The notes beneath the pieces were generated by a model, which saw only the letters and a list, made by a program, of their open reading frames with translations, had not been told where the DNA came from and made no database searches. Positions 292 through 13,600 of a stretch of 13,600 nt of DNA are shown piece after piece (the first letter of the stretch is position 1; each line of letters opens with the position of its first letter). Made by a program: the position numbers and the translations under genes. The stretch is from an uncultured Actinomycetes bacterium. Its GTDB lineage: Bacteria; Actinomycetota; Actinomycetes; Mycobacteriales; Mycobacteriaceae. The DNA is taken from positions 1-13,600 of the forward strand of contig CAIWCQ010000005.1 of assembly GCA_903911165.1 (NCBI GenBank). The letters are read 5' to 3'.

Positions 292-1107
292 ATGGGATCA
301 CTCAACGGTCAGGTTGCGCTCATCACCGGGGCCGCACGCGGAATGGGGCGCGCGCACGCGGTCAGGCTCGCCTCCGAGGGTGCCGCCATCATCGCGATCG
401 ACATCTGCGCAGAGTTCGAGTCGACCGACTACCCCGGCGCAACCTCTGATGACCTGGCCACCACAGTGCAACTGGTCGAGGACGGTGGCGGCCGAATACT
501 GGCCCGGCAGGGCGACGTTCGCGACGGCGATTCCCTCGCGGCGGTGCTCGAGGAGGGACTGCAGGCCTTCGGCAGGCTCGACATCGTCATCGCCAATGCC
601 GGGATCATCCGGATCACCGACACCGATGATCGGTACCGCACCTTCCGCGACATCATCGATGTCAATCTCATCGGCGCGTGGAACACCGTCGACGCCGCGA
701 TACCGGCGCTCATCGAGGGCGGCCGCGGCGGATCGATCGTGCTCGTCAGCTCGACGCAGGGGATTAAGGCCTCGGGTACTGAGCGCGCGGGTTTACAGGC
801 CTATGGCGCCGCGAAGCGGGGTCTGGTTGCACTCATGCAGGGATGGGCAAGTCAGCTTGCGCAGCATTCAATCCGGGTCAACACCATCCACCCGAGCGGG
901 GTCGCGACCGACATGATCGTCAATGAGGCAACCATCGGCCTGGCGGCGGCACACGATCCCTGGTTGGCCACCCAGCAGAACGCGTTGCCGATCGGGCTCC
1001 TGGCTCCGGACGACGTCGCGGGCGCGGTGGCATGGTTGGTCTCCGATGCGGCCAGGTTCATCACCGGCATCTGCTGGCCACTGGACGCCGGATTTACCGT
1101 TCGGTGA
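292..1107 (+). CDS. Mycofactocin-coupled SDR family oxidoreductase
   Basis: A 271-residue NAD-dependent short-chain dehydrogenase. The cofactor glycine motif TGAARGMG is at residues 12-19, an acidic residue after the second strand ('AIDIC', D37) favours NAD over NADP, NAG is at 102-104, and the catalytic residues are Ser154 and Tyr171-x3-Lys175. The phrases 'GRAHAVRLASEGA', 'AIDIC' and 'YRTFRDIIDVNLIGAW' are typical of the mycofactocin-coupled SDR subfamily. Those enzymes hold NAD(H) tightly and recycle it through the peptide redox cofactor mycofactocin while oxidising alcohols. The start at 292 is chosen over an in-frame upstream codon at 247 because GAAGGA (280-285) sits 6 bases before it and it begins just after the upstream stop. 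No mycofactocin biosynthesis gene is in the window. Substrate unknown. Confidence 0.9.
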   Translation: MGSLNGQVALITGAARGMGRAHAVRLASEGAAIIAIDICAEFESTDYPGATSDDLATTVQLVEDGGGRILARQGDVRDGDSLAAVLEEGLQAFGRLDIVIANAGIIRITDTDDRYRTFRDIIDVNLIGAWNTVDAAIPALIEGGRGGSIVLVSSTQGIKASGTERAGLQAYGAAKRGLVALMQGWASQLAQHSIRVNTIHPSGVATDMIVNEATIGLAAAHDPWLATQQNALPIGLLAPDDVAGAVAWLVSDAARFITGICWPLDAGFTVR

Positions 1108-2834: not shown

Positions 2835-4760
2835 TCAGTACTCGGGTTGTGTGAGGTTCAGGCCCGGGATGAAGACCGCTGCTGCAGCCTGCGCCCACAC
2901 CAGGACTCCGACGAGTCCCGCGGTGGCGATCAGTCCGACGTTTGCCGCGATGGGAAGGCCGATCGCGTTGATCAGGCCCGCAATCGGCTGTCCGTTGATC
3001 ATCTGCTCGATTCCGGCGAGGACCAGGTTCACGGAATAGGCCGGCAGTGAAATCAGAAACGCGTTGATGATGTCCGCGGTGGGCAGCAGTGCGGCGTAGA
3101 GGCCGGCGATCGCGAATGACACCCGGTCGGCGATCGCGGTGATCCCGTCCTGGAGGTCCTTGATGAATTCGTCGGGCGTCGGTAGTGAGAACGACAGGGT
3201 CGGAAGCGAAAATGACTGCACCGCAAGTGCGATTGCGGAGATTTCCCTGGCCAAAGAACCCTGCGGTCCGAAGTCGGCGACGAAATCGCTGACACCCTCT
3301 CCGATCCCGCTAACCAAGCGGCTCAACACCTCGAGTGGACTGACGTCGGGGAACAGCCCGAACGGAACAACCACGTTGGCATCGGGTTGGACGGCGGAGG
3401 TGAATCCGTGTGCCGGATCGCCGTAGCCGAGATCCACGATCACCTTCAGAACGGGCTGGATCAGGTCGGCGATGGGCGTACCGATCAGGGGAAGCAACCG
3501 CAAGGGCTCCAGCAAGGGCAGATTCTCGGTCGGCATGAAGAGGTATCGCTGCGTCGGCGACGTCGTGGGCAGTTCGATGGCGGTGCCGCCCAGCGAGACC
3601 GGGATGACGGCCGGCGGCGGTGTGGATCCAATCGCATTGAAGTACTCGGCGTCGGCGTACTTGGTGTGGACGAAGACGATTCCGAGTCCCGCATTGAGAA
3701 CTGACAGCAAGTTCAGTGGATACCGCGGGAAGTCGGCAAATCCGTCATACTCCAACGCGTAATTCGTTGTGGGATAGGCATCTTTAGGAGTTCCGCCGTA
3801 GAATTCGATACCCAGACTGGCCAGGGAAAGGCCGGGGAACCGCGACAGAAAGCCTCCGTTTGGGTTCATCTCGTTACCCACGAAAACGAAACTGATCGAC
3901 TCCCGCAGGCCCTCGGGGATCGTGGGCTTTGTGAATTTGGGCGGGACGTACGTTGAATTCGGCGGGACGTACCCTTCTTGGAGCAGGGAGCCGATGATCG
4001 CGCTCTGCGAGTACCCGAATACCGTCGTCGTGGTGCCGGCGGGCAATTTCGCCAGGGTGTCCGAAACGATCGTCAGCCCCTGATCCACCGAGGTGCTCAG
4101 CGGCAGGCTCTTGACGCCGGTGATCGGGTACAGGCCTTCGGGAGTGAACACCACCTGGGGTGCCAGGGTGCCACCCGGACTGTTCGGGGTTACGTAAAAG
4201 TTCATCACGTTGTGGACGTAGGTCTGCGACGGGATCGGAACGCCACTCGGCCCGGGGATGAGGGGCAGGGTGGCCGCCAATGCCGGGACCGCCGCCGTGC
4301 TGGCAGCCGAAGTGCGGCGGCCGACCGCCAATCCGGTCCATTCCAGCGGGGAACCGACCGGAACCGCCGGCGCTCCGTCCGCGGCCGGATCGACGGGGAT
4401 ACCGGCCGGCGCGCTCACCATCCCCGACACCGGTGCGGCGGCCACCGGTAGCGGCGTAGCACGGGACCGCTGGGGTGCCGGTCTGGGCTTGGTGCTGCCG
4501 ATGGCTCGGGCCGGGGCCGTGCCCCGCGTCGGTGACGCCGCCGAGGCGGCCCCGCGAACGTTGGCCCCCCGCCCGTCGGTCCTGCCCCCGTCGGCCCTGC
4601 CCCCGTCGGACCCCCGCCCGTCGACTGCTGCCGACGGGGCGTCCGATCCGGCCGAGGGGGATTCCGCCCAGGCGGTCGCCGAGCCACTGAAGGCTGCGGC
4701 GCCCACGCCGAGAGCGACCGCCAAACCACCGACCCGACCGATGTGATTGCTGGCGCCCAC
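2835..4760 (-). CDS. Exported PE-PPE-domain serine hydrolase with disordered N-terminal linker
   Basis: A 641-residue protein probably exported to the mycobacterial envelope. Residues 1-32 form a signal peptide: 'HIGR', a hydrophobic stretch and an Ala-x-Ala-type site near 'TAWAE'. Residues 33-160 are a Gly/Ala/Pro/Arg-rich low-complexity linker. The PE-PPE domain (alpha/beta serine-hydrolase fold of the cutinase/lipase type) spans about 165-400, beginning 'LPLIPGPSGVPIPSQTYV'. The GYSQS nucleophile elbow is at 249-253, with Ser251 the likely nucleophile. The C-terminus has a long hydrophobic segment (about 605-632). Unlike many relatives it lacks an N-terminal PE or PPE secretion domain and uses a signal peptide instead. 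The start is GTG at 4760: it is the first usable start after an in-frame stop upstream and has a GGGGA (4765-4769) 4 bases before it. Substrate unknown; esterase activity on lipids is plausible for the family. Confidence 0.88.
   Translation of the reverse strand: MGASNHIGRVGGLAVALGVGAAAFSGSATAWAESPSAGSDAPSAAVDGRGSDGGRADGGRTDGRGANVRGAASAASPTRGTAPARAIGSTKPRPAPQRSRATPLPVAAAPVSGMVSAPAGIPVDPAADGAPAVPVGSPLEWTGLAVGRRTSAASTAAVPALAATLPLIPGPSGVPIPSQTYVHNVMNFYVTPNSPGGTLAPQVVFTPEGLYPITGVKSLPLSTSVDQGLTIVSDTLAKLPAGTTTTVFGYSQSAIIGSLLQEGYVPPNSTYVPPKFTKPTIPEGLRESISFVFVGNEMNPNGGFLSRFPGLSLASLGIEFYGGTPKDAYPTTNYALEYDGFADFPRYPLNLLSVLNAGLGIVFVHTKYADAEYFNAIGSTPPPAVIPVSLGGTAIELPTTSPTQRYLFMPTENLPLLEPLRLLPLIGTPIADLIQPVLKVIVDLGYGDPAHGFTSAVQPDANVVVPFGLFPDVSPLEVLSRLVSGIGEGVSDFVADFGPQGSLAREISAIALAVQSFSLPTLSFSLPTPDEFIKDLQDGITAIADRVSFAIAGLYAALLPTADIINAFLISLPAYSVNLVLAGIEQMINGQPIAGLINAIGLPIAANVGLIATAGLVGVLVWAQAAAAVFIPGLNLTQPEY
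4560..4619. repeat. Four tandem 15-base units inside the PE-PPE gene
   Basis: Four consecutive 15-base units (4560-4574, 4575-4589, 4590-4604, 4605-4619) share the plus-strand pattern GTYGG followed by a C-rich run. Read on the minus strand they encode the pentapeptides GRGSD, GGRAD, GGRTD and GRGAN in the linker between signal peptide and hydrolase domain. The unit length keeps the frame, so copy number could change without disrupting the protein. Confidence 0.75.
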
Positions 4761-6688: not shown

Positions 6689-7768
6689 ATGGATCCGGCG
6701 CCACGGCCAGACATTCCTCGTCGGGCAGAGGATCTCGATGCCGCCACATTTCGCGCGCTGACTGGCCGCACTGATGTGACCGCTGTGCAGATCGACGGCA
6801 TCGAAAGTGGTACCGCGCTCCGGGCCCGGATCGCCATCACCGGAAGTCCAGACCTACCGGCGCGGGCTTTCGTCAAGCTCGCCCCCATTCGGCCCGCTGA
6901 ACTTCTGCTCAACCGCTTGATGGCGCTGGCGCAGACAGAGGCGCTGATCTATCGGCAGGTGAATACCGAACTCGCCTGGCTCATGCCGAAAACATATGCC
7001 GCGCTTTCGGATCCACGAAGCAGCCGAGCGATTGTCATCATGGAGGATCTCACCGACCGCGATGCCCGGTTCCTGTCTGTGGAAGCAGGATGTACAGCAG
7101 CGGATGCGTTGGCAGTCGCTGCCGCACTTGGCGATCTGCACCGAAGATTCTGGATGTCGGACCGGTTGCATACCGGCGATCTCCTCGAACTAAGCCCCAC
7201 GAGGTCACGCTCAACATCCCGCGGGCCATGGGCCTGGCCGCTGCTGCGGATGATCCCGCGGCAATTCCACGACGTCGTTCCTGCGGACGTCCGTGCCCAG
7301 ACGTCGACCCTGGTCACACAACGCTGGACGATAGCCAAGCTCATCGGCACATACCCGCACACCCTGATTCACGGCGATACCCATGCCGGCAATATCTGTC
7401 TGATCGGCGACCGGCCGATGCTCTTCGATTGGCAGGTGGCATCCTGCGGTCCGGCAGTGAAAGACCTGTCCTACTTCGCCTGCACGTCGCTGGACACCGA
7501 AACGCGCCGGGCAATCGAAACCCGGCTCGTTGAGACCTACGTTGCGCATCTCAACGGAGATGGCATCGAGCGCCTCTCATTCGCGCAAGCCTGGGATGCC
7601 TACCGATTGTTCGCATTCACCGCCTATGTCGCCGCGGGGGTCACCTCAGTCTTCGGCCGGCGACTGCAAAGTGAGGCATCGACTCGCGCAGGTTTACGCC
7701 GCGCGGTTCAGGCGATTGGTGATCTGGACACCCTGGCAATGCTGCGCAGCCAACTCGGTACGGCCTGA
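6689..7768 (+). CDS. Small-molecule phosphotransferase, aminoglycoside/choline kinase fold
   Basis: A 359-residue kinase-like protein. The Brenner motif HGDTHAGN is at 228-235 (catalytic Asp230, metal-binding Asn235), followed by the metal-binding aspartate in LFDWQ (Asp247). The N-lobe shows 'AFVKLAP' at about 60-66, whose Lys63 is the likely ATP-contacting lysine, and 'IVIMEDL' at 115-121, the hinge strand. This layout fits the APH/choline-kinase/ecdysteroid-kinase-like group, common in mycobacteria, where the substrate is usually unknown. Antibiotic resistance is not implied. The ATG is 6 bases after the antiporter stop, so the two genes are probably co-transcribed, though no functional link is obvious. 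It converges on the catabolic operon with 17 bases between stops. No hairpin terminator is visible in that space. Confidence 0.85.
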   Translation: MDPAPRPDIPRRAEDLDAATFRALTGRTDVTAVQIDGIESGTALRARIAITGSPDLPARAFVKLAPIRPAELLLNRLMALAQTEALIYRQVNTELAWLMPKTYAALSDPRSSRAIVIMEDLTDRDARFLSVEAGCTAADALAVAAALGDLHRRFWMSDRLHTGDLLELSPTRSRSTSRGPWAWPLLRMIPRQFHDVVPADVRAQTSTLVTQRWTIAKLIGTYPHTLIHGDTHAGNICLIGDRPMLFDWQVASCGPAVKDLSYFACTSLDTETRRAIETRLVETYVAHLNGDGIERLSFAQAWDAYRLFAFTAYVAAGVTSVFGRRLQSEASTRAGLRRAVQAIGDLDTLAMLRSQLGTA

Positions 7769-7785: not shown

Positions 7786-8601
7786 TCAGCGGTTGGGTAG
7801 GCAGAGCAGCCGTTCGGTTTCCCCGATGGACGCGATCGACAGGTCCAGCGAGCGTGCCAGTTCGGCGGTGCGTGCGACCAGTGGTGTGTTTCCCTGCGCG
7901 AGTTCGCCTTTGCGGAGGTACAGGGTGTCCTCGAGGCCCGCTCGGGCATTGCCGCCCAGCGCCAGGCCGATCCCGGTGAGGGTGAGGTTCGCCCGTCCGA
8001 TGGCGATGATCTGCCAGACGCAGTCCTTGGGCAGCCGCTCGACCATCATCACCAGGTTCGCCGGTGTTGCGGCCGCGCCGCCGGCGACACCCAGCACAAT
8101 GGAGAACTGCAATGGATCGGCGAGCAGGCCTTCGTCGTGGAGGCGCATGACGGCATCGAGGTGGCCGGTGTCGTAGACCTCAAGTTCGGGTTTTACGTCC
8201 AACTCGCGCATGCGGGCGGCGAGTCGGCGAACTCCATCGGGAGGGTTACGGAACTCGCCCTTGCCGAAGGACATTGTGCACGGGTTCAAAGTGGCCATGC
8301 GCGGCCGTAACTCGACGAGCTTCTCGCGTTCCTCGAAGGGCACCGAGAGCCCGACACCGGTGGAAAGCTGAATGTGAATGGGGCAGCGCTCGGTGATCAG
8401 GTCCATCGTCCGCCGCGCAATGCTCAAGTCGGCGGTGGGCTTTTCGTTCTCGTCGCGCAGGTGCAGGTGTGCGACCGTCGCTCCGGCCAGGTAGGCCTCG
8501 TGCACCGCCGCAGCGATCTCCTCTGGGCTGGTCGGTAGGTACTGATTGTCCGATTTGAAGGCGATCGGTCCGGTTGGTGCGACGGTGAGGACGACGCTCA
8601 T
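7786..8601 (-). CDS. Beta-keto acid cleavage enzyme (BKACE family); candidate triacetate acetoacetate-lyase
   Basis: A 271-residue TIM-barrel Zn enzyme related to 3-keto-5-aminohexanoate cleavage enzyme (Kce). The family reaction is beta-keto acid + acetyl-CoA giving acetoacetate + an acyl-CoA. Visible residues: 'VAPTG' at the first strand, Zn ligands His45 and His47 in 'AHLHLRD', the third ligand Glu224 in 'GLEDTLYL', and the Arg220/Asp225 pair with the same spacing as the catalytic Arg/Asp of Kce. The strand usually rich in Thr/Gly reads 'ATLNPCTMSFG', which may reflect substrate choice. It is the last gene of the operon; its ATG overlaps the cupin stop by one base (TGATG) with GAAGGAAA just upstream. 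Family is sure. That it takes 3,5-dioxohexanoate is inferred from the operon; a dehydrocarnitine-cleaving role is the main alternative. Confidence 0.92.
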   Translation of the reverse strand: MSVVLTVAPTGPIAFKSDNQYLPTSPEEIAAAVHEAYLAGATVAHLHLRDENEKPTADLSIARRTMDLITERCPIHIQLSTGVGLSVPFEEREKLVELRPRMATLNPCTMSFGKGEFRNPPDGVRRLAARMRELDVKPELEVYDTGHLDAVMRLHDEGLLADPLQFSIVLGVAGGAAATPANLVMMVERLPKDCVWQIIAIGRANLTLTGIGLALGGNARAGLEDTLYLRKGELAQGNTPLVARTAELARSLDLSIASIGETERLLCLPNR

Positions 8602-8942
8602 CAGCTTTCCTTCGGATAGGCGATGATCACCAGCATGGTGGCGTCACGATCGCTGGCGTTGACCAGTTCCCGGGTCTCGCCGGGGCCGAAGTGCACCGAG
8701 TCGTGCTTGCCAAGGGTGTGCTGCCCCTCGCAAGTCAGCGTCAACTCGCCGTCGAGCACCACGTACGCCGTCTCCGCGCGGGTAGGCGAGGACTCGGCGA
8801 TGCCGCCGGGCGGATAGACCGAGAGACCAACCCAGAAGTTCTCCGACGGGCCGGCTTCGAGACCTTGTAGTCGCCGGGTGTCGACTCCGGTATGCATCGG
8901 TGCCGCATAGGGCACTGCATCGGCATGACGGGTGATGCGCAC
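8601..8942 (-). CDS. Small single-domain cupin lacking the usual metal-binding histidines
   Basis: A 113-residue cupin (beta-barrel fold), counted from a GTG at 8942 one base after the stop of the cyclase-family gene. Longer upstream starts would overlap that gene heavily. The core is visible: 'GGIAESSPTRAETAYVVLDGELTL' corresponds to cupin motif 1, and 'HDSVHFGPGETRELVN' to motif 2 with its Pro-Gly turn and terminal Asn. By alignment to the usual G-x5-H-x-H-x3-4-E-x6-G pattern, both motif 1 histidines are replaced and the motif 2 histidine is an arginine, so canonical metal binding seems lost. Position between ring-opening hydrolase and BKACE suggests a part in the same pathway, either as an isomerase or decarboxylase of another kind or as a ligand-binding accessory protein. 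Function unknown. Confidence 0.8.
   Translation of the reverse strand: MRITRHADAVPYAAPMHTGVDTRRLQGLEAGPSENFWVGLSVYPPGGIAESSPTRAETAYVVLDGELTLTCEGQHTLGKHDSVHFGPGETRELVNASDRDATMLVIIAYPKES
8606..8613 (-). promoter_or_regulatory. Ribosome binding site of the BKACE gene
   Basis: GAAGGAAA on the minus strand, inside the end of the cupin coding region, 4 bases from the ATG at 8601. Together with the TGATG stop/start overlap it indicates efficient coupled translation of the final gene. Confidence 0.6.
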
Positions 8943-8943
8943 G

Positions 8944-9777
8944 TCAGTTGTTCCCGGTCTCGATGCGATAGGTGCCCTTCGGATCGGTGATCGCCACCAG
9001 GCGAACGATGCATCCGTCACCGCCGCGCCACCGCCACGGGAAGGCGGCGAAGGTGACGCGTTTACCGGTCACCTTGTCGATATCGCCGCCGACGTTCTCG
9101 AAGCCGTAGATGCCGTTGGTCAGGATTTCGCGATGGCAGGGCTCCCACAGCGCGAATTCCTCGGACACCAACTTGCCGGTCTCCTCCTCGAATTCCCTAC
9201 AGGCCCAGGGCAATAGGCCGCCGGTAGCCTCGGCTGGTCCGTGCGGGCCGATGGCAGTGGCCAACGGGTGATCGAGTGCCTGGGTGTCGGTACCCACGGC
9301 CTTGACGCCTTTGGAGACGAACCACTCGCCGGCCTCCTTGTAGAAACCCGGACTGTAGGCGTAGTACTCCGCGCTGTCGGCGTACTTGTGGTGCCAACCG
9401 GTGTTGACGATGACGATGTCGCCCTCGCGGACCGGCGTCTTCTCGGCTGCCTTGTCGAGGTGCTCGGGCATGATCTTCTCCCACTTGCCCATCGGCACAT
9501 CGAGAACGACGCCGGTGCCGAAGAAGGCACTCAGCGGAATCTCGTCGAGCAGGGGAGTGCCCTCGACCACGTGGCCGGGTGCATCGATATGGGTACCCGA
9601 GTGCATGACGGTGGTGATCTTCTGAGTCAGCACCCGGCTCTTGGCCATGCCATGCAGGCGTTCGATCTTGACGTCCTCGAAGTACGGCCAGCACGGCTGA
9701 CCCAGACCCCAGGAGTGGGATAGGTCGACGAACTCAAGTTGGCTTTCCGCATCGCCCAGCGGCCACGTGTAGGTCAT
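8944..9777 (-). CDS. Cyclase-family metal-dependent hydrolase; candidate dihydrophloroglucinol cyclohydrolase
   Basis: A 277-residue member of the cyclase/kynurenine-formamidase family (PF04199 type). The metal-binding signature HSGTHIDAP occupies 59-67 (His59, His63, Asp65). It is preceded by the family's 'VDLSHSWG' strand (17-24) and followed by 'GTDTQALDHP' (162-171), where the family places a conserved Asp/His region. These enzymes hydrolyse amides, lactones or cyclic diketones. In the anaerobic phloroglucinol pathway the C-C ring-opening step, dihydrophloroglucinol to 3-hydroxy-5-oxohexanoate, is done by a cyclohydrolase that I recall as belonging to this family. Here it lies directly after the dehydrogenase and before the cupin (1-base gap). 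AGAGGA sits before the ATG. Family is sure; the substrate is inferred from neighbours. Confidence 0.9.
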   Translation of the reverse strand: MTYTWPLGDAESQLEFVDLSHSWGLGQPCWPYFEDVKIERLHGMAKSRVLTQKITTVMHSGTHIDAPGHVVEGTPLLDEIPLSAFFGTGVVLDVPMGKWEKIMPEHLDKAAEKTPVREGDIVIVNTGWHHKYADSAEYYAYSPGFYKEAGEWFVSKGVKAVGTDTQALDHPLATAIGPHGPAEATGGLLPWACREFEEETGKLVSEEFALWEPCHREILTNGIYGFENVGGDIDKVTGKRVTFAAFPWRWRGGDGCIVRLVAITDPKGTYRIETGNN

Positions 9778-9781
9778 GATG

Positions 9782-9787
9782 TCCTCT
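9782..9787 (-). promoter_or_regulatory. Ribosome binding site of the cyclase-family gene
   Basis: AGAGGA on the minus strand, 4 bases before the ATG at 9777, in the 27-base gap after the dehydrogenase stop. This is one of only two operon junctions with a real gap, so the gene has its own initiation site. Confidence 0.55.
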
Positions 9788-9804
9788 CGAAAGGGTTGTG
9801 GTGG

Positions 9805-10698
9805 TTAGGTTTTGACTTGTCGGGAGATATGCGCGGCCAGCCGGGCGGCCGCGGCGTCACGGGCGCCGGATGGCCAGGCCAGGAAACCCTGCCCGGTCTT
9901 GGCGCCGAGCTCGCCTACCGCGACTTTGTGCCGCAGTAGCGGGCTGGAGTGCGGGTCGCTGTTGATGCTCGGCAGCACCTGCTCGTGGATCGCTAACGTC
10001 AGGTCGAGTCCGACGTAATCGGCGTTCTCGATCGGACCCATCGCGGCGAGACGAAGCCCGATGGTGTTGCGGACCACGAGATCGACGGTCTCGGCATCGC
10101 AGACCCCGCTGGCAACCAGGTCGATTGCCTCTCGCCACAGTGCGTGCTGTAGACGATTGCCGACGAAGCCGGGAACGTCCCGCTGCACCCGGACCGGGAT
10201 CTTGCCGACGAACTCCAGCACCTCAAATGCGGTATCCATCGACTCGGTCGACGTGTGGTCGCCCCGGACTATCTCGACGACGGGAATGAGATCCGGCGGG
10301 TTCCACCAGTGCATGCCCACGGTGCGATCGGCACCGGCAAGACCCTCGGTGATCCGCGAGATGGGAATCACCGAGGAGTTGCTCGCCAGCAGCGCATCCG
10401 GGGCAGCGGCGCGGGCTGCGGCGAAAAGCGCCCGCTTGGCGTCGAGGTCTTCAACGATGGCCTCGATGACGAGATCGGCGTTGGCTACTGCCGCCGCGAG
10501 GTTCGCCTCGCCGACGATGTGCGCCTTGGGAGCCATTGACCGGGCTTCGGTCAATGCGCTGTCGAGCACCCCCGGTTGGGAATCGGTGAGCACCACCGGT
10601 AACCCGGAGCGTGCAATGACCCCGGCGATACGACGACCCATCAGGCCGGCACCGACCACGGCGACCGATCCGACCGGGTGTGCAGAATCCGTCAGCAC
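9805..10698 (-). CDS. 3-hydroxyacyl-CoA dehydrogenase family NAD enzyme; candidate 3-hydroxy-5-oxohexanoate dehydrogenase
   Basis: A 297-residue beta-hydroxyacid dehydrogenase. The Rossmann motif GAGLMG is at 16-21, with Asp39 ending the second strand (NAD preference), and 'LASNSS' is at 104-109. The catalytic His-Glu pair is His130 in 'HWWNPPDLIPVVE' and Glu142, with the 12-residue spacing of the family. 'VPGFVGNRLQHALWREA' opens the C-terminal domain. The HWWNPP form, instead of the usual HFFNP, and the short single-domain layout resemble relatives that oxidise free 3-hydroxy acids, such as L-carnitine dehydrogenase and lambda-crystallin, rather than the CoA ester enzymes of beta-oxidation. 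That fits conversion of 3-hydroxy-5-oxohexanoate to 3,5-dioxohexanoate. It starts at a GTG overlapping the upstream SDR stop by 7 bases. Family sure; substrate inferred. Confidence 0.92.
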   Translation of the reverse strand: MLTDSAHPVGSVAVVGAGLMGRRIAGVIARSGLPVVLTDSQPGVLDSALTEARSMAPKAHIVGEANLAAAVANADLVIEAIVEDLDAKRALFAAARAAAPDALLASNSSVIPISRITEGLAGADRTVGMHWWNPPDLIPVVEIVRGDHTSTESMDTAFEVLEFVGKIPVRVQRDVPGFVGNRLQHALWREAIDLVASGVCDAETVDLVVRNTIGLRLAAMGPIENADYVGLDLTLAIHEQVLPSINSDPHSSPLLRHKVAVGELGAKTGQGFLAWPSGARDAAAARLAAHISRQVKT

Positions 10699-11477
10699 GC
10701 GGTGTAGCCACCGTCGAGGTACAGCACCTGCCCGGTCATGAAAGACGAGGAGTCACTGAGCAGGTAGACCAGCGCCCCCACGAAGTCCTCCGGTTCGGCG
10801 AACCGCTTGAGCGGAATGCGGGAGAACATCGCCTCGCGGGTGGCCCGGCCCTTCTCGTCGTCGGCGTACATCCAGGCGGTGAGCTCAGAGCGAAACACTG
10901 TCGGCGCCAGCACGTTACAGCGGATCTGGTGCGGGCCCCACTCGGCGGCCAGCGTCTTGCCGAGCAGGTCGACGGCGGCCTTGGAGGGGCAGTAGGCGGT
11001 GTAACCCGCGGGATGTCCGAGCTTGCCGCGGGTCGACGACACCAGCACCACCGAGCCGCCGCGGCCCTGGTCGATGAGCACCGGTGCGGCGGCCTTCGCC
11101 ATCAACCAGGAGCCCTTGACATTGGCGTCCATCACCGATTCCCAGTCCGCCACGGACTGGTCCGTGATGAGACCGACCTTGTTCATGCCGGACGCGACGA
11201 GCATGCCGTCGATTCCGCCGAAGGCGGCCACCGCACCGGCGACGATGGTCTCGGCATCGGCGAGTTCGTCGGGTCGTCGGGCGACGATGGTGCTGTGGCC
11301 GGCGAGTTCCTGCAGTGCGCACAGTTCCTCCAGCACAGCGACATTGGTGCCGGCCAGAGTCACATTCGCGCCCGCAGCCCCCAGTGCCTTGGCGGCCTCG
11401 GAGCCCATGGCGCCCGAGGCTCCGGTGACTATCACGGACTTGCCTTCAATCGAGAAGCGCTTCGCGGGATCGACCAT
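10692..11477 (-). CDS. Short-chain dehydrogenase; candidate phloroglucinol reductase
   Basis: A 261-residue classical SDR, FabG-like in length. The cofactor motif TGASGAMG (18-25) has Ala where the middle Gly normally stands. Other visible elements are 'DANVKG' (Asn119), Ser148 in 'VLVSSTRG' and Tyr162-x3-Lys166 (YCPSK), and 'EPEDFVGALVYLLSDSSSFMTGQVLYLDGG' is the usual C-terminal signature. The NNAG motif is replaced by 'ASGMN' (95-99), and the Ser-to-Tyr spacing is one residue longer than usual. Phloroglucinol reductases of anaerobes and fungal polyhydroxynaphthalene reductases are SDRs that reduce polyphenols through their keto tautomers, so this gene is the obvious candidate for reductive dearomatisation. 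GAGG (11485-11488) lies 7 bases before the ATG. It could instead be an ordinary alcohol or oxoacyl dehydrogenase. Confidence 0.92.
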   Translation of the reverse strand: MVDPAKRFSIEGKSVIVTGASGAMGSEAAKALGAAGANVTLAGTNVAVLEELCALQELAGHSTIVARRPDELADAETIVAGAVAAFGGIDGMLVASGMNKVGLITDQSVADWESVMDANVKGSWLMAKAAAPVLIDQGRGGSVVLVSSTRGKLGHPAGYTAYCPSKAAVDLLGKTLAAEWGPHQIRCNVLAPTVFRSELTAWMYADDEKGRATREAMFSRIPLKRFAEPEDFVGALVYLLSDSSSFMTGQVLYLDGGYTAC

Positions 11478-11484
11478 GTCAGGG

Positions 11485-11490
11485 CCTCAC
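11485..11490 (-). promoter_or_regulatory. Ribosome binding site of the operon SDR
   Basis: GTGAGG on the minus strand, 7 bases before the ATG at 11477, in the 26-base gap after the PhlG-family stop. Confidence 0.5.
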
Positions 11491-11503
11491 ATTTTCCGCG
11501 GGG

Positions 11504-12340
11504 TCAATCGCCATGTCCGGACTCCTGTTCGTAGATCGCGGGCAGGAAGGTGGCCAGGTGGGTCATCTCCTGCGAGCAATGCACGAGCAGTGCCCGGGCA
11601 TCGAGTTCGGTCAGCCCGACAAGCCGTTTGGCCACCGGCACCGCGGCTCGCAGCGGGGCTGATCGGGCTGCGATGTCGGGTCCGCCAAGCCAGAAGCGTG
11701 AGCGCATCACGCTGCCGCCGGGGACGGCGGCGACGTGGTGCGCGAGATAGCCGAGATCGACGGGAAGGTCCACCAGTCCGGTGCGGGCACACACCGCGGT
11801 CGCGTCCACGCCGGCTGCAACCGCGGCGTCCACCAGACCGAATTCCTCGGGCCGGCGGAACTGGATGGCCCCGCGAATCATGGCGCTGCCGAGGTATTCG
11901 TCGACTTCGGAGGTGTGTCCGACATACCGGGCGCGGCCGGTACTGCCGACCGGAGGCTGTGTGGTCCACTGCGCGTGCACGTGTGCCTTCGGATGCCAGA
12001 GTTTGTAGCGTTCGGGGCTGTCACCGTGCCAGCCGAACCACCAGTCGATCATTTGAGGTGTCACGTCGGGCATCTCAGTCACGAGGTTGACGCGCATCGC
12101 GCCGTCGGAGGTAATGGTGAAACCGTTCTGCACCTCGGCGTCGGGAATGTTGCCGATAGCTTGTGCCATCGGGGGGAACAGCGCCTCGGCCATCGGGCTG
12201 TTGGCCACCGCACGGTGGGCGTCGGCCGAGATATCGGCCATGACGGGATTCCAGAACCGCGCGTAGGGCAGCGTGGCGAGTTCGTGGTCGGACCAACCGA
12301 GTCGACGCCCCGGTACACGTTTGGGTGCGGGTACTTTCAT
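11504..12340 (-). CDS. PhlG-family C-C hydrolase (2,4-diacetylphloroglucinol / phloretin hydrolase type)
   Basis: A 278-residue enzyme of the DAPG hydrolase family, which removes the acyl group from acylphloroglucinols by Zn-dependent carbon-carbon hydrolysis (2,4-diacetylphloroglucinol to monoacetylphloroglucinol + acetate; phloretin hydrolase is a relative). Family signatures seen are 'WWFGWHGDSPERYKLWHP' followed by 'HVH', the 'VDEYLG' segment with its acidic residues, and near the C-terminus HCSQE followed by 'THLATFLP', whose His-x3-Glu spacing matches two known Zn ligands of PhlG. The start is set at the ATG at 12340 because it forms a 4-base ATGA overlap with the preceding FAD oxidase gene; an ATG seven codons upstream would overlap more. 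It is the second visible gene of the operon. Family assignment is strong; which acylphloroglucinol it accepts is not known. Confidence 0.88.
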   Translation of the reverse strand: MKVPAPKRVPGRRLGWSDHELATLPYARFWNPVMADISADAHRAVANSPMAEALFPPMAQAIGNIPDAEVQNGFTITSDGAMRVNLVTEMPDVTPQMIDWWFGWHGDSPERYKLWHPKAHVHAQWTTQPPVGSTGRARYVGHTSEVDEYLGSAMIRGAIQFRRPEEFGLVDAAVAAGVDATAVCARTGLVDLPVDLGYLAHHVAAVPGGSVMRSRFWLGGPDIAARSAPLRAAVPVAKRLVGLTELDARALLVHCSQEMTHLATFLPAIYEQESGHGD

Positions 12341-13600
12341 GCGCTTACCGCTCCGATCCATCGGTTGAAGCGACCCTCGGGGTCATGTACGGCGCGGATC
12401 TCCTCGAGCCGGCTCTGCGCAGCCTCGGAGATACCGCGGGAAGGGCGTCCGGGGTCGTCGGCGAACTGGACACCGGTCGACAGCGACTCCATGGCGGCGG
12501 CGTTATCGCGTGACCACCGTGTGGTGGCGGCGCCGTCGTCGCCGTCGAGCCAGCCGCCGTAAAACGCGAGATACGTCTTGTCCTCCACCGTGTACGCCAT
12601 GTCGGGGAGGTTTCCCGGCGGCGCCCAGTTCAGCCACAAGAAATGCGCGGGTGGGGCCGGCATGGTGTCGGCGATGCGCTGGATATGCGGTAGTAACTCG
12701 TCGGCGCTGGCGTGGGTCCAGAGGTTATCGGCCTCCCAGTTGGCTACGGGGTAGTGCTGCATCACACCCGAGTACAACGGACCCATCGTGGAGGGCAGTA
12801 GTGGCGTGCCCAGTCGGGCGCCCTTTGGTCGGCTAGCCGCGAAGGCGGTGGCGGCTTTGGCCGCCGACCGGGATGCGGCCATGACGGGCAAGACCAACTC
12901 GATGCTCACCGGCGAGCGGACTGTTCGACGCCGTAACGGTGGTGGAAATGACGGGCCCCTCGAGACGACGAACTGCATCTCGACTTCCGGCGGGACATCC
13001 GCGCCTACCCGGTCCACCCAGCGCACCACATCCTCGAGTCGGTCGATGGGGTAGTTGAACAGTGTTGTTCCGATAAAGCCCGGCTTGGGGTATACCCGTA
13101 GATGGAATCGCACGATGACACCGAAGAAGTCCGGACCGGAACCCCTTGCGGCCCAAAGCATATCGGCGTTCTCGGTCTCACTGGCATGGCGTAATTCACC
13201 GTCGGCGTCCACGTAGTCGATCGCGATGACGTTAGAGCACGCTATTCCCGTGGCGCGACCGTTCCAGCCGAAGCCGCCCTGCAGTAGGTAGCCGCCGACC
13301 GCCACGCCGCGGCAATGGCCCACGGGGAAGAACAGGTCTCGTTTCATCAGTTCGGCGAGCAGCACACTGCCGCCGAGGCCGGGTTCGGCGGTAGCGGTCA
13401 TCGCCGACTTGTCGACCGTGAAACTTTTTAAGCGGGACACGTCGATGAGCACGCCGCCATCGCGCACATGGTTGGCCGACCAACTGTGACCACCGGAGCG
13501 CACGCCCACCTGCCGACCCTCGGCCTTCGCCGCCCGTACCGCCGCCACCACGTCGCCGACGGAGTTGGCCTGCACGATGCGGACGGGGAACCGATCCGGC
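12337..13600 (-). CDS. FAD-linked oxidase, berberine-bridge-enzyme type (5' end beyond window)
   Basis: The frame stays open through the right edge (PDRFPVRIV before the GTG at 13575), so that GTG is internal and the N-terminal residues are missing; about 420 residues are visible. The VAO/BBE flavoprotein pattern is clear. 'VRSGGHSWS' holds the histidine that carries FAD covalently, 'GHCRGVAVGGYLLQGGFGW' holds a cysteine in the place of the second covalent FAD bond, so bicovalent FAD is likely, and 'ACSNVIAIDYVDADGE' and 'AARGSGPDFFGVIVRF' continue the FAD and substrate domains. The C-terminal BBE tail is 'HDPEGRFNRWIG'. Such enzymes oxidise alcohols, sugars, alkaloids or polyketides with O2. 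Here it is translationally coupled to the PhlG-type hydrolase, suggesting it modifies the same compound or a side chain. Substrate unknown. Confidence 0.9.
   Translation of the reverse strand, partial: PDRFPVRIVQANSVGDVVAAVRAAKAEGRQVGVRSGGHSWSANHVRDGGVLIDVSRLKSFTVDKSAMTATAEPGLGGSVLLAELMKRDLFFPVGHCRGVAVGGYLLQGGFGWNGRATGIACSNVIAIDYVDADGELRHASETENADMLWAARGSGPDFFGVIVRFHLRVYPKPGFIGTTLFNYPIDRLEDVVRWVDRVGADVPPEVEMQFVVSRGPSFPPPLRRRTVRSPVSIELVLPVMAASRSAAKAATAFAASRPKGARLGTPLLPSTMGPLYSGVMQHYPVANWEADNLWTHASADELLPHIQRIADTMPAPPAHFLWLNWAPPGNLPDMAYTVEDKTYLAFYGGWLDGDDGAATTRWSRDNAAAMESLSTGVQFADDPGRPSRGISEAAQSRLEEIRAVHDPEGRFNRWIGAVSA

Follow-up and report, generated by a model that had tools for sequence, protein, structure and literature searches.

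A predicted acylphloroglucinol catabolic operon joining two gene modules in an uncultured member of the Mycobacteriaceae

An uncultured Actinomycetes bacterium of the family Mycobacteriaceae (assembly GCA_903911165.1) carries on contig CAIWCQ010000005.1 an operon of seven minus-strand genes that we predict to serve the catabolism of acylphloroglucinols. The window, by which we mean the whole stretch of DNA analysed, is this 13,600-base contig in full, from an assembly of 3.14 Mb in 524 contigs with 97.6% completeness. We take the genus to be Mycobacterium, since relatives of the window proteins (P0196, P0243) bear that name and one genome of the same genus is M. riyadhense. Because the window is the entire contig, the N terminus of the oxidase encoded at its edge is missing (about 30 first residues; 420 amino acids in the window versus 452 in the nearest relatives), and the upstream region lies outside view. 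The initial annotation had described seven closely packed open reading frames, and these are present as it had them. Its spacings were reproduced on recomputation: overlaps of 1 base between the BKACE and cupin genes, 7 between the 3HCDH and short-chain dehydrogenase/reductase (SDR) genes, and 4 between PhlG and the flavin adenine dinucleotide (FAD) oxidase, and gaps of 1 between cupin and cyclase (counted with the cupin starting at the GTG at 8942), 27 between cyclase and 3HCDH, and 26 between SDR and PhlG. All seven proteins score above Pfam cut-offs in a profile scan, and the operon reads as follows:

7786..8601, minus strand: BKACE-family enzyme, predicted 3,5-dioxohexanoate (triacetate) lyase (PF05853, 281 bits)
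8601..8942, minus strand: cupin protein, the module's fifth member, a tautomerase at a guess (PF07883, Cupin_2, 41 bits)
8944..9777, minus strand: cyclase-family hydrolase, predicted dihydrophloroglucinol cyclohydrolase, DPGC (PF04199, 129 bits)
9805..10698, minus strand: 3HCDH-family dehydrogenase, predicted (S)-3-hydroxy-5-oxohexanoate dehydrogenase, TfD (PF02737, 3HCDH_N, 159 bits; PF00725, 3HCDH, 76 bits)
10692..11477, minus strand: SDR, predicted phloroglucinol reductase, PGR, probably using NADH (adh_short_C2, 162 bits; best PDB match 5g4k)
11480..11517, minus strand: remnant of a lost DUF1330 gene (comparison with relatives by eye)
11504..12340, minus strand: PhlG-family C-C hydrolase, predicted acylphloroglucinol deacylase (PF18089, DAPG_hydrolase, 169 bits)
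12337..13600, minus strand: EncM/BBE-like FAD oxidase, 5' end missing at the contig end (PF01565, FAD_binding_4, 93 bits)

In Clostridium scatologenes, PGR (an SDR), DPGC (a 'cyclase'), TfD (a 3HCDH) and TAL (a BKACE) convert phloroglucinol to acetoacetate and acetoacetyl-CoA, according to the accessible portion of Zhou et al. (2023, PMC10470551). All four families are encoded together in the window. The best PDB match of the SDR, at 184 bits, is 5g4k, which we take to be the phloroglucinol reductase of Clostridium BAA-442; its lead over the next entry (128 bits) is about 55 bits. The SDR has the catalytic Ser-Tyr-Lys and a shared PTVFRS-LT-WM motif, and part of the 5g4k sequence is identical to a Flavonifractor plautii protein in one of our clostridial loci (L114). 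The cyclase carries, in a W-P-Y-F motif, the Trp20/Tyr22 pair of the C. scatologenes enzyme (CsDPGC) in place of Ile32/Leu34 of isatin hydrolase, and keeps the His/Asp set, members of which presumably bind metal. Residues were scored as alignment columns, with rows below length or identity limits left out and one M. riyadhense plasmid locus entered twice (L054/L189, L174/L190). Scored this way, the Trp/Tyr pair recurs in all 107 other rows (33 mycobacterial, 2 from the actinobacterial family f52, 2 sphingomonad and 70 clostridial), and in one locus (L092) the two fall at residues 20 and 22, as in CsDPGC.

The dehydrogenase, numbered after HBD 6aa8, has the features of the triacetate-forming enzyme: the region of the CoA-binding Lys56 is missing, Asn221 is replaced by Arg, and Ser117, His138 and Asn188 are kept. 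This replacement, together with the three kept residues, is found in 81 of 81 other rows (18 actinobacterial, 1 sphingomonad and 62 clostridial); Lys56 is absent from 80 of them, and its position is an alignment gap in the actinobacterial rows, the window included. Other assignments were rejected. A carnitine or dehydrocarnitine route for the BKACE and 3HCDH proteins fails on carnitine dehydrogenase models that reach 106–126 bits against cut-offs of 414–592, and kynurenine formamidase fails for the cyclase on TIGR03035 (57 bits, cut-off 223), such names on its relatives looking family-level.

The module of SDR, 3HCDH, cyclase, cupin and BKACE is phylogenetically widespread, occurring in clostridial phloroglucinol loci, mycobacteria, family f52 and sphingomonad plasmids. 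A scan with the 5g4k reductase gave 174 qualifying stretches, of which 80 were kept, several on short contigs; by their titles all are from Clostridia or unplaced Bacillota, including Eubacterium ramulus and Flavonifractor plautii. Homologues of the window proteins were found by tblastn in these 80 loci in the order SDR (80), cyclase (74), 3HCDH (67), BKACE (54), cupin (44) and PhlG (5), with identities, over 12 loci, of 38–43% for the SDR, 34–41% for the 3HCDH, 38–41% for the cyclase, 28–34% for the BKACE and 37–42% for the cupin. Two sphingomonad plasmids, Novosphingobium pLA3 and Rhizorhabdus wittichii pSWIT02, carry cyclase-cupin-SDR-3HCDH-BKACE, a series that a transporter gene interrupts on one of the two. 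In family f52, two genomes (G469 and G520) hold the cyclase at 81% identity, on contigs other than those with PhlG; all five module genes lie together at one locus (L202), and a BKACE match is absent from another (L201).

The gene-to-reaction scheme of the initial annotation, whose pathway is well supported, omitted the cupin, although this protein accompanies that pathway across phyla. At the threshold of a second count, 43 clostridial loci have a cupin homologue, in every case less than 1 kb from the reductase, and both sphingomonad operons have one. By eye, the window cupin is without HxH, which we take to be the usual cupin metal motif, and because this motif is missing we guess at a tautomerase acting on keto/enol forms. 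The protein scores 144 bits against the cut-off of 175 of NF050094, a model named for an M. tuberculosis beta-galactosidase. That name, 'beta-D-galactosidase', presumably after Rv1717, is an odd fit beside phloroglucinol reductases in Clostridia and sphingomonads. We therefore doubt the glycosidase label of the family, on gene context alone and against a published assay. The word cupin is absent from the accessible text of PMC10470551 (word search).

Upstream of the ring-opening module, the window PhlG matches PF18089 and keeps His/Glu/His/Glu, which we take to be the Zn ligands of the family; the 2,4-DAPG hydrolase model NF047887 scores it at 89 bits against a cut-off of 600. Its closest solved relative is phloretin hydrolase 5xey/5xe5 (108 bits), presumably the M. 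abscessus enzyme. PhlG matches occur in 17 of 394 genomes of the class, and window-like copies (73–80%) outside the genus in the two f52 genomes only, two in each. In a PhlG tree of 43 rows, a clade of 15 (100/99) unites the window with sister genome G150, f52 genomes, P0230 (Kofleriaceae) and P0231 (Marinicauda), and 23 mycobacterial rows form a separate group (100/97). The oxidase has EncM as nearest PDB entry (128–130 bits, 130 over residues 2–411; next entry 95) and has His and Cys at the positions that presumably form the flavin bonds. The His recurs in 21 of 23 mycobacterial rows (the remaining two having Arg), all 4 f52 rows and the one other row; the Cys is without exception among these 28 rows. 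Apart from the window's, 24 genus loci were compared, and in 22 of them PhlG has an oxidase of 38% identity or more as its neighbour, L086 and L184 being the exceptions. The oxidase tree also places the window, G150 and f52 together (100/100, with a long-branch warning). As the two trees agree, the pair was probably transferred between lineages as a unit.

The window is a site at which this oxidase-PhlG pair is operonic with the ring-opening module; in G150 the pair is operonic with at least the SDR and 3HCDH genes. There, the order on a 4.4-kb contig (C187) is 3HCDH (cut)-SDR-DUF1330-PhlG-oxidase, and the end of a TetR-type regulator gene comes before it. A DUF1330 gene follows PhlG in L173 (1399–1764), L176, L177 and L178 and was not found in L175; between PhlG and SDR in the window, only traces of its ends are seen by eye. 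The SDR tree sets the window, G135 and G150 on a separate branch (100/100). The oxidase-PhlG pair is common in mycobacteria but as a rule sits in another part of the genome than the ring-opening module. The two modules can thus share a genome at a distance: on the 472-kb M. riyadhense plasmid NZ_OY970457.1 (L189, L190) they lie about 190 kb apart, each near an IclR regulator, with the 3HCDH match in two pieces, and two f52 genomes have both modules at separate loci. The M. riyadhense plasmid modules are second copies, as chromosomal copies of both exist too.

Within the genus, a cyclase of at least 76% identity is found in 32 of 198 genomes (next best match, 33%). Identities range from 76 to 83%, except for a near-copy at 99% in G135, and one 78% relative (P0053) is labelled M. 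tuberculosis. PhlG searches, with at most 12 candidates scored per genome, hit 88 of the 198 genomes, and dropping five weak matches (G066, G087, G117, G171 and G195) left 83. PhlG is present in 29 of the 32 cyclase-bearing genomes and in 54 of the 166 others (Fisher p 6e-10, uncorrected for ancestry); with shared ancestry uncorrected, we dropped this p-value as proof.

The 31 genomes that share the cyclase with the window yielded 32 loci, one (L052) too short to judge PhlG and a few others with only about 1 kb upstream. Sixteen are complete for the module, with the 3HCDH gene split in one and the contig end truncating another; one lacks the cupin, and 15 hold SDR and cyclase only. Conservation of the seven genes as a unit, which the initial annotation had looked to, was not borne out: of these mycobacterial loci, the 31 whose length allows a verdict, none of them knowingly M. 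abscessus, all lack PhlG next to the module within the fetched stretch, and the junction is repeated solely on G150:C187. The 15 reduced loci (for example L062, L063, L066 and L070), with no 3HCDH, cupin or BKACE beside them, all fall in one 16-row fork of the SDR tree (94/90); they may represent a shortened pathway that would end at 3-hydroxy-5-oxohexanoate. In L063 a helix-turn-helix protein, IclR-like by eye, comes next after the cyclase.

We consider it probable that the operon serves the catabolism of acyl- and perhaps alkylphloroglucinols through two joined modules, each reaction in this organism being one that we infer from sequence. The covalent-FAD oxidase, with O2, would prepare the substrate, most likely by turning the ring-adjacent carbon into a ketone. 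Some covalent flavoproteins oxidise the side chains of phenols, and it is by analogy with these that benzylic oxidation is favoured. PhlG, with Zn, would then hydrolyse the aryl-ketone C-C bond to give phloroglucinol and a carboxylic acid, a predicted deacylation supported by family membership and the Zn site. Homology, residues and context all give good support to the predicted route that leads from phloroglucinol to acetoacetyl-CoA: the SDR would form dihydrophloroglucinol, the cyclase-family enzyme would open the ring to 3-hydroxy-5-oxohexanoate, the 3HCDH-family enzyme would oxidise this to 3,5-dioxohexanoate, and the BKACE would convert the latter with acetyl-CoA to acetoacetate and acetoacetyl-CoA. 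The cupin may assist, possibly with keto/enol tautomers. Because the SDR and the dehydrogenase probably share NAD(H), ring opening would be redox-neutral and independent of O2.

Several observations weigh against this assignment. In the NADPH motif TR(S/N) of PGR, the Arg (of TGRN) is Thr in the window; that Arg is present in 80 of 80 clostridial SDRs and in none of 39 others, the window's included. With this NADPH-phosphate-binding residue missing, the window SDR probably uses NADH. The BKACE keeps KCE His46, His48, Arg226, Glu230 and Asp231 and has Ile at the Glu14 site, as do 18 mycobacterial, 1 f52 and 2 sphingomonad rows; it is without the Trp that marks clostridial triacetate acetoacetate-lyases there (51 of 51 clostridial rows). 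Two other solved BKACEs are also hydrophobic at this site (Val, Leu), and the Ile is therefore not specific. Four curated BKACE models match the window protein, and in every case its score is short of the cut-off. On NF053538 (3,5-dioxohexanoate cleavage enzyme, cut-off 430) the sphingomonad proteins of the same slot, which speak for the assignment, pass at 504 and 505, and the window (166.9), mycobacterial (186) and clostridial (216) proteins fail; distinct BKACE subfamilies appear to occupy one module slot. In its tree the window PhlG is distant from the two characterised enzymes, with a long branch separating it from 5xey.

Other contrary points concern distribution and published work. Three genomes (G100, G135 and G137) have the cyclase without PhlG and 54 have PhlG without the cyclase; the link between the two is thus not obligate. 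A close oxidase was not found in G100, G135 or G137 either, G135 being 89% complete with its contig ending inside the SDR gene. All 10 other module-bearing genus genomes in the PhlG tree sit inside one 14-row subclade, so that kinship inflates the co-occurrence, and an orthologous cyclase was not found in G150, a genome 63% complete. We take fadB3 to be Rv1715, Rv1717 and Rv1718 to be the cupin and BKACE of M. tuberculosis (NF050094 helping for the cupin), and Rv1774 to be the oxidase of the Rv1774–Rv1775 pair. Refolded Rv1717, a relative of the window cupin, has been assayed as a beta-galactosidase (PMC7873859, accessible part), and a fadB3 mutant is described as without phenotype on the carbon sources tested, among which polyphenols were not seen in the accessible part of PMC3220763.

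The five-reaction pathway first proposed is partly supported: its four ring-opening families match the C. scatologenes set (PMC10470551, accessible portion), cluster in clostridial loci and keep the DPGC and TfD diagnostic residues, but the clostridial PGR arginine and TAL tryptophan are absent. Its novelty for mycobacteria does not hold. The available text of PMC10470551 reports the phloroglucinol cluster in various Mycobacterium species alongside phloretin hydrolase, and that of a 2018 study (PMC5894108) finds Rv1714–Rv1716 about 40% identical to a clostridial polyphenol cluster and M. tuberculosis ProX binding phloretin and acylphloroglucinols. Four points are new, as far as could be seen: the two modules are joined, the oxidase is a regular companion of PhlG, the cupin belongs to the module as its fifth member across phyla, and the non-clostridial versions have cofactor and specificity changes in common. 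A search of the accessible literature found no published link between the oxidase and PhlG.

More speculatively, a bicovalent-FAD oxidase may turn the alkyl (benzylic) side chain of a phloroglucinol lipid or ketone into an aryl ketone with O2, PhlG may cut it, and an O2-free, NADH-balanced opening may follow with the cupin as a true fifth enzyme. As the two gene sets are fused in the window operon, the scattered Rv1774–Rv1775-type pairs and Rv1714–Rv1718-type clusters would then belong to a single pathway, whose substrate might be a phenolic lipid that the organism makes itself. We put this fuller scheme forward tentatively, as possible but doubtful.

The module could instead act on another cyclic 1,3-dione or a resorcinol-like ring, the aerobic versions having drifted while the chemistry (reduce, hydrolyse, oxidise, retro-Claisen) was kept. 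The replacement of the reductase Arg and TAL Trp in every non-clostridial row examined, and identities of only 28–43% to the clostridial proteins in the 12 loci, speak for such a drift. However, the cyclase Trp/Tyr and the dehydrogenase Asn-to-Arg change are in all aligned rows, the sphingomonad BKACE slot is filled by a curated 3,5-dioxohexanoate enzyme, and the operon also encodes a member of the PhlG family, known to act on phloroglucinol ketones; we regard another ring as unlikely. Breakdown of phloretin or other flavonoids, with PhlG as phloretin hydrolase, seems to us quite improbable: 5xey/5xe5 is the closest solved relative and phloretin hydrolase has been placed in mycobacterial clusters (PMC10470551, accessible portion), but the window PhlG branches well apart from 5xey, none of ten window proteins scanned with Pfam is a flavonoid-type enzyme, and Rv1775, a PhlG-like protein, was judged to lack phloretin-specific residues and probably to be no phloretin hydrolase (PMC8562490, accessible part). 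That the oxidase-PhlG pair merely detoxifies acylphloroglucinol antibiotics, the module using the freed ring, fits a PhlG much commoner in the genus than the module cyclase (83 versus 32 of 198 genomes) and trees suggestive of transfer, yet is likewise quite improbable given a pair operonic with catabolic genes in the window and with at least two of them in G150.

Acylphloroglucinol catabolism by two joined modules would unite mycobacterial gene sets that have been described apart, making of the two a single testable pathway, and give the conserved oxidase and cupin a context. It also suggests reductive phloroglucinol dearomatisation in aerobes (mycobacteria and sphingomonads) with altered cofactor use, and raises a question over the beta-galactosidase label of the cupin family.

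Two further minus-strand genes look by eye like those of a PE-PPE-type protein (2835–4760) and release factor 3 (1130–2782), an ordinary neighbourhood for a mycobacterium. An EcKL/APH-type kinase-like gene (6689–7768, plus strand) runs convergently towards the operon, with 17 bases between it and the BKACE stop, and a mycofactocin-dependent SDR (295–1107, plus strand; NF009467, 340 bits, cut-off 269) lies outside it.

Among known systems, the PGR-DPGC-TfD-TAL cluster of C. scatologenes resembles the window in its four enzyme families, their clustering, and the DPGC and TfD diagnostic residues. The window differs in having no PGR arginine, Ile for the TAL Trp, an added PhlG and flavoprotein oxidase, and a host whose aerobic life we take from its genus; identity to clostridial relatives is 28–43%, C. 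scatologenes itself being outside the loci compared. The mycobacterial Rv1714–Rv1718-type cluster has the same gene order as the window's five-gene form, whereas the PhlG-oxidase pair adjoins the module in the window and is not adjacent in 31 other genus loci. Pseudomonas PhlG (3hwp) and phloretin hydrolase (5xey) share PF18089 and the four Zn ligands with the window PhlG, but are distant from it. Of the EncM/BBE-like covalent flavoproteins, EncM is similar to the window oxidase over its full length; the oxidase has, however, a Cys where the second flavin bond would form and a Val in place of EncM Thr139, sites whose roles we presume, and EncM-like N5-oxide chemistry is therefore doubtful. The Rv1774–Rv1775-type pair sets the same two families side by side, while the window pair belongs to another clade, with family f52 and environmental sequences.

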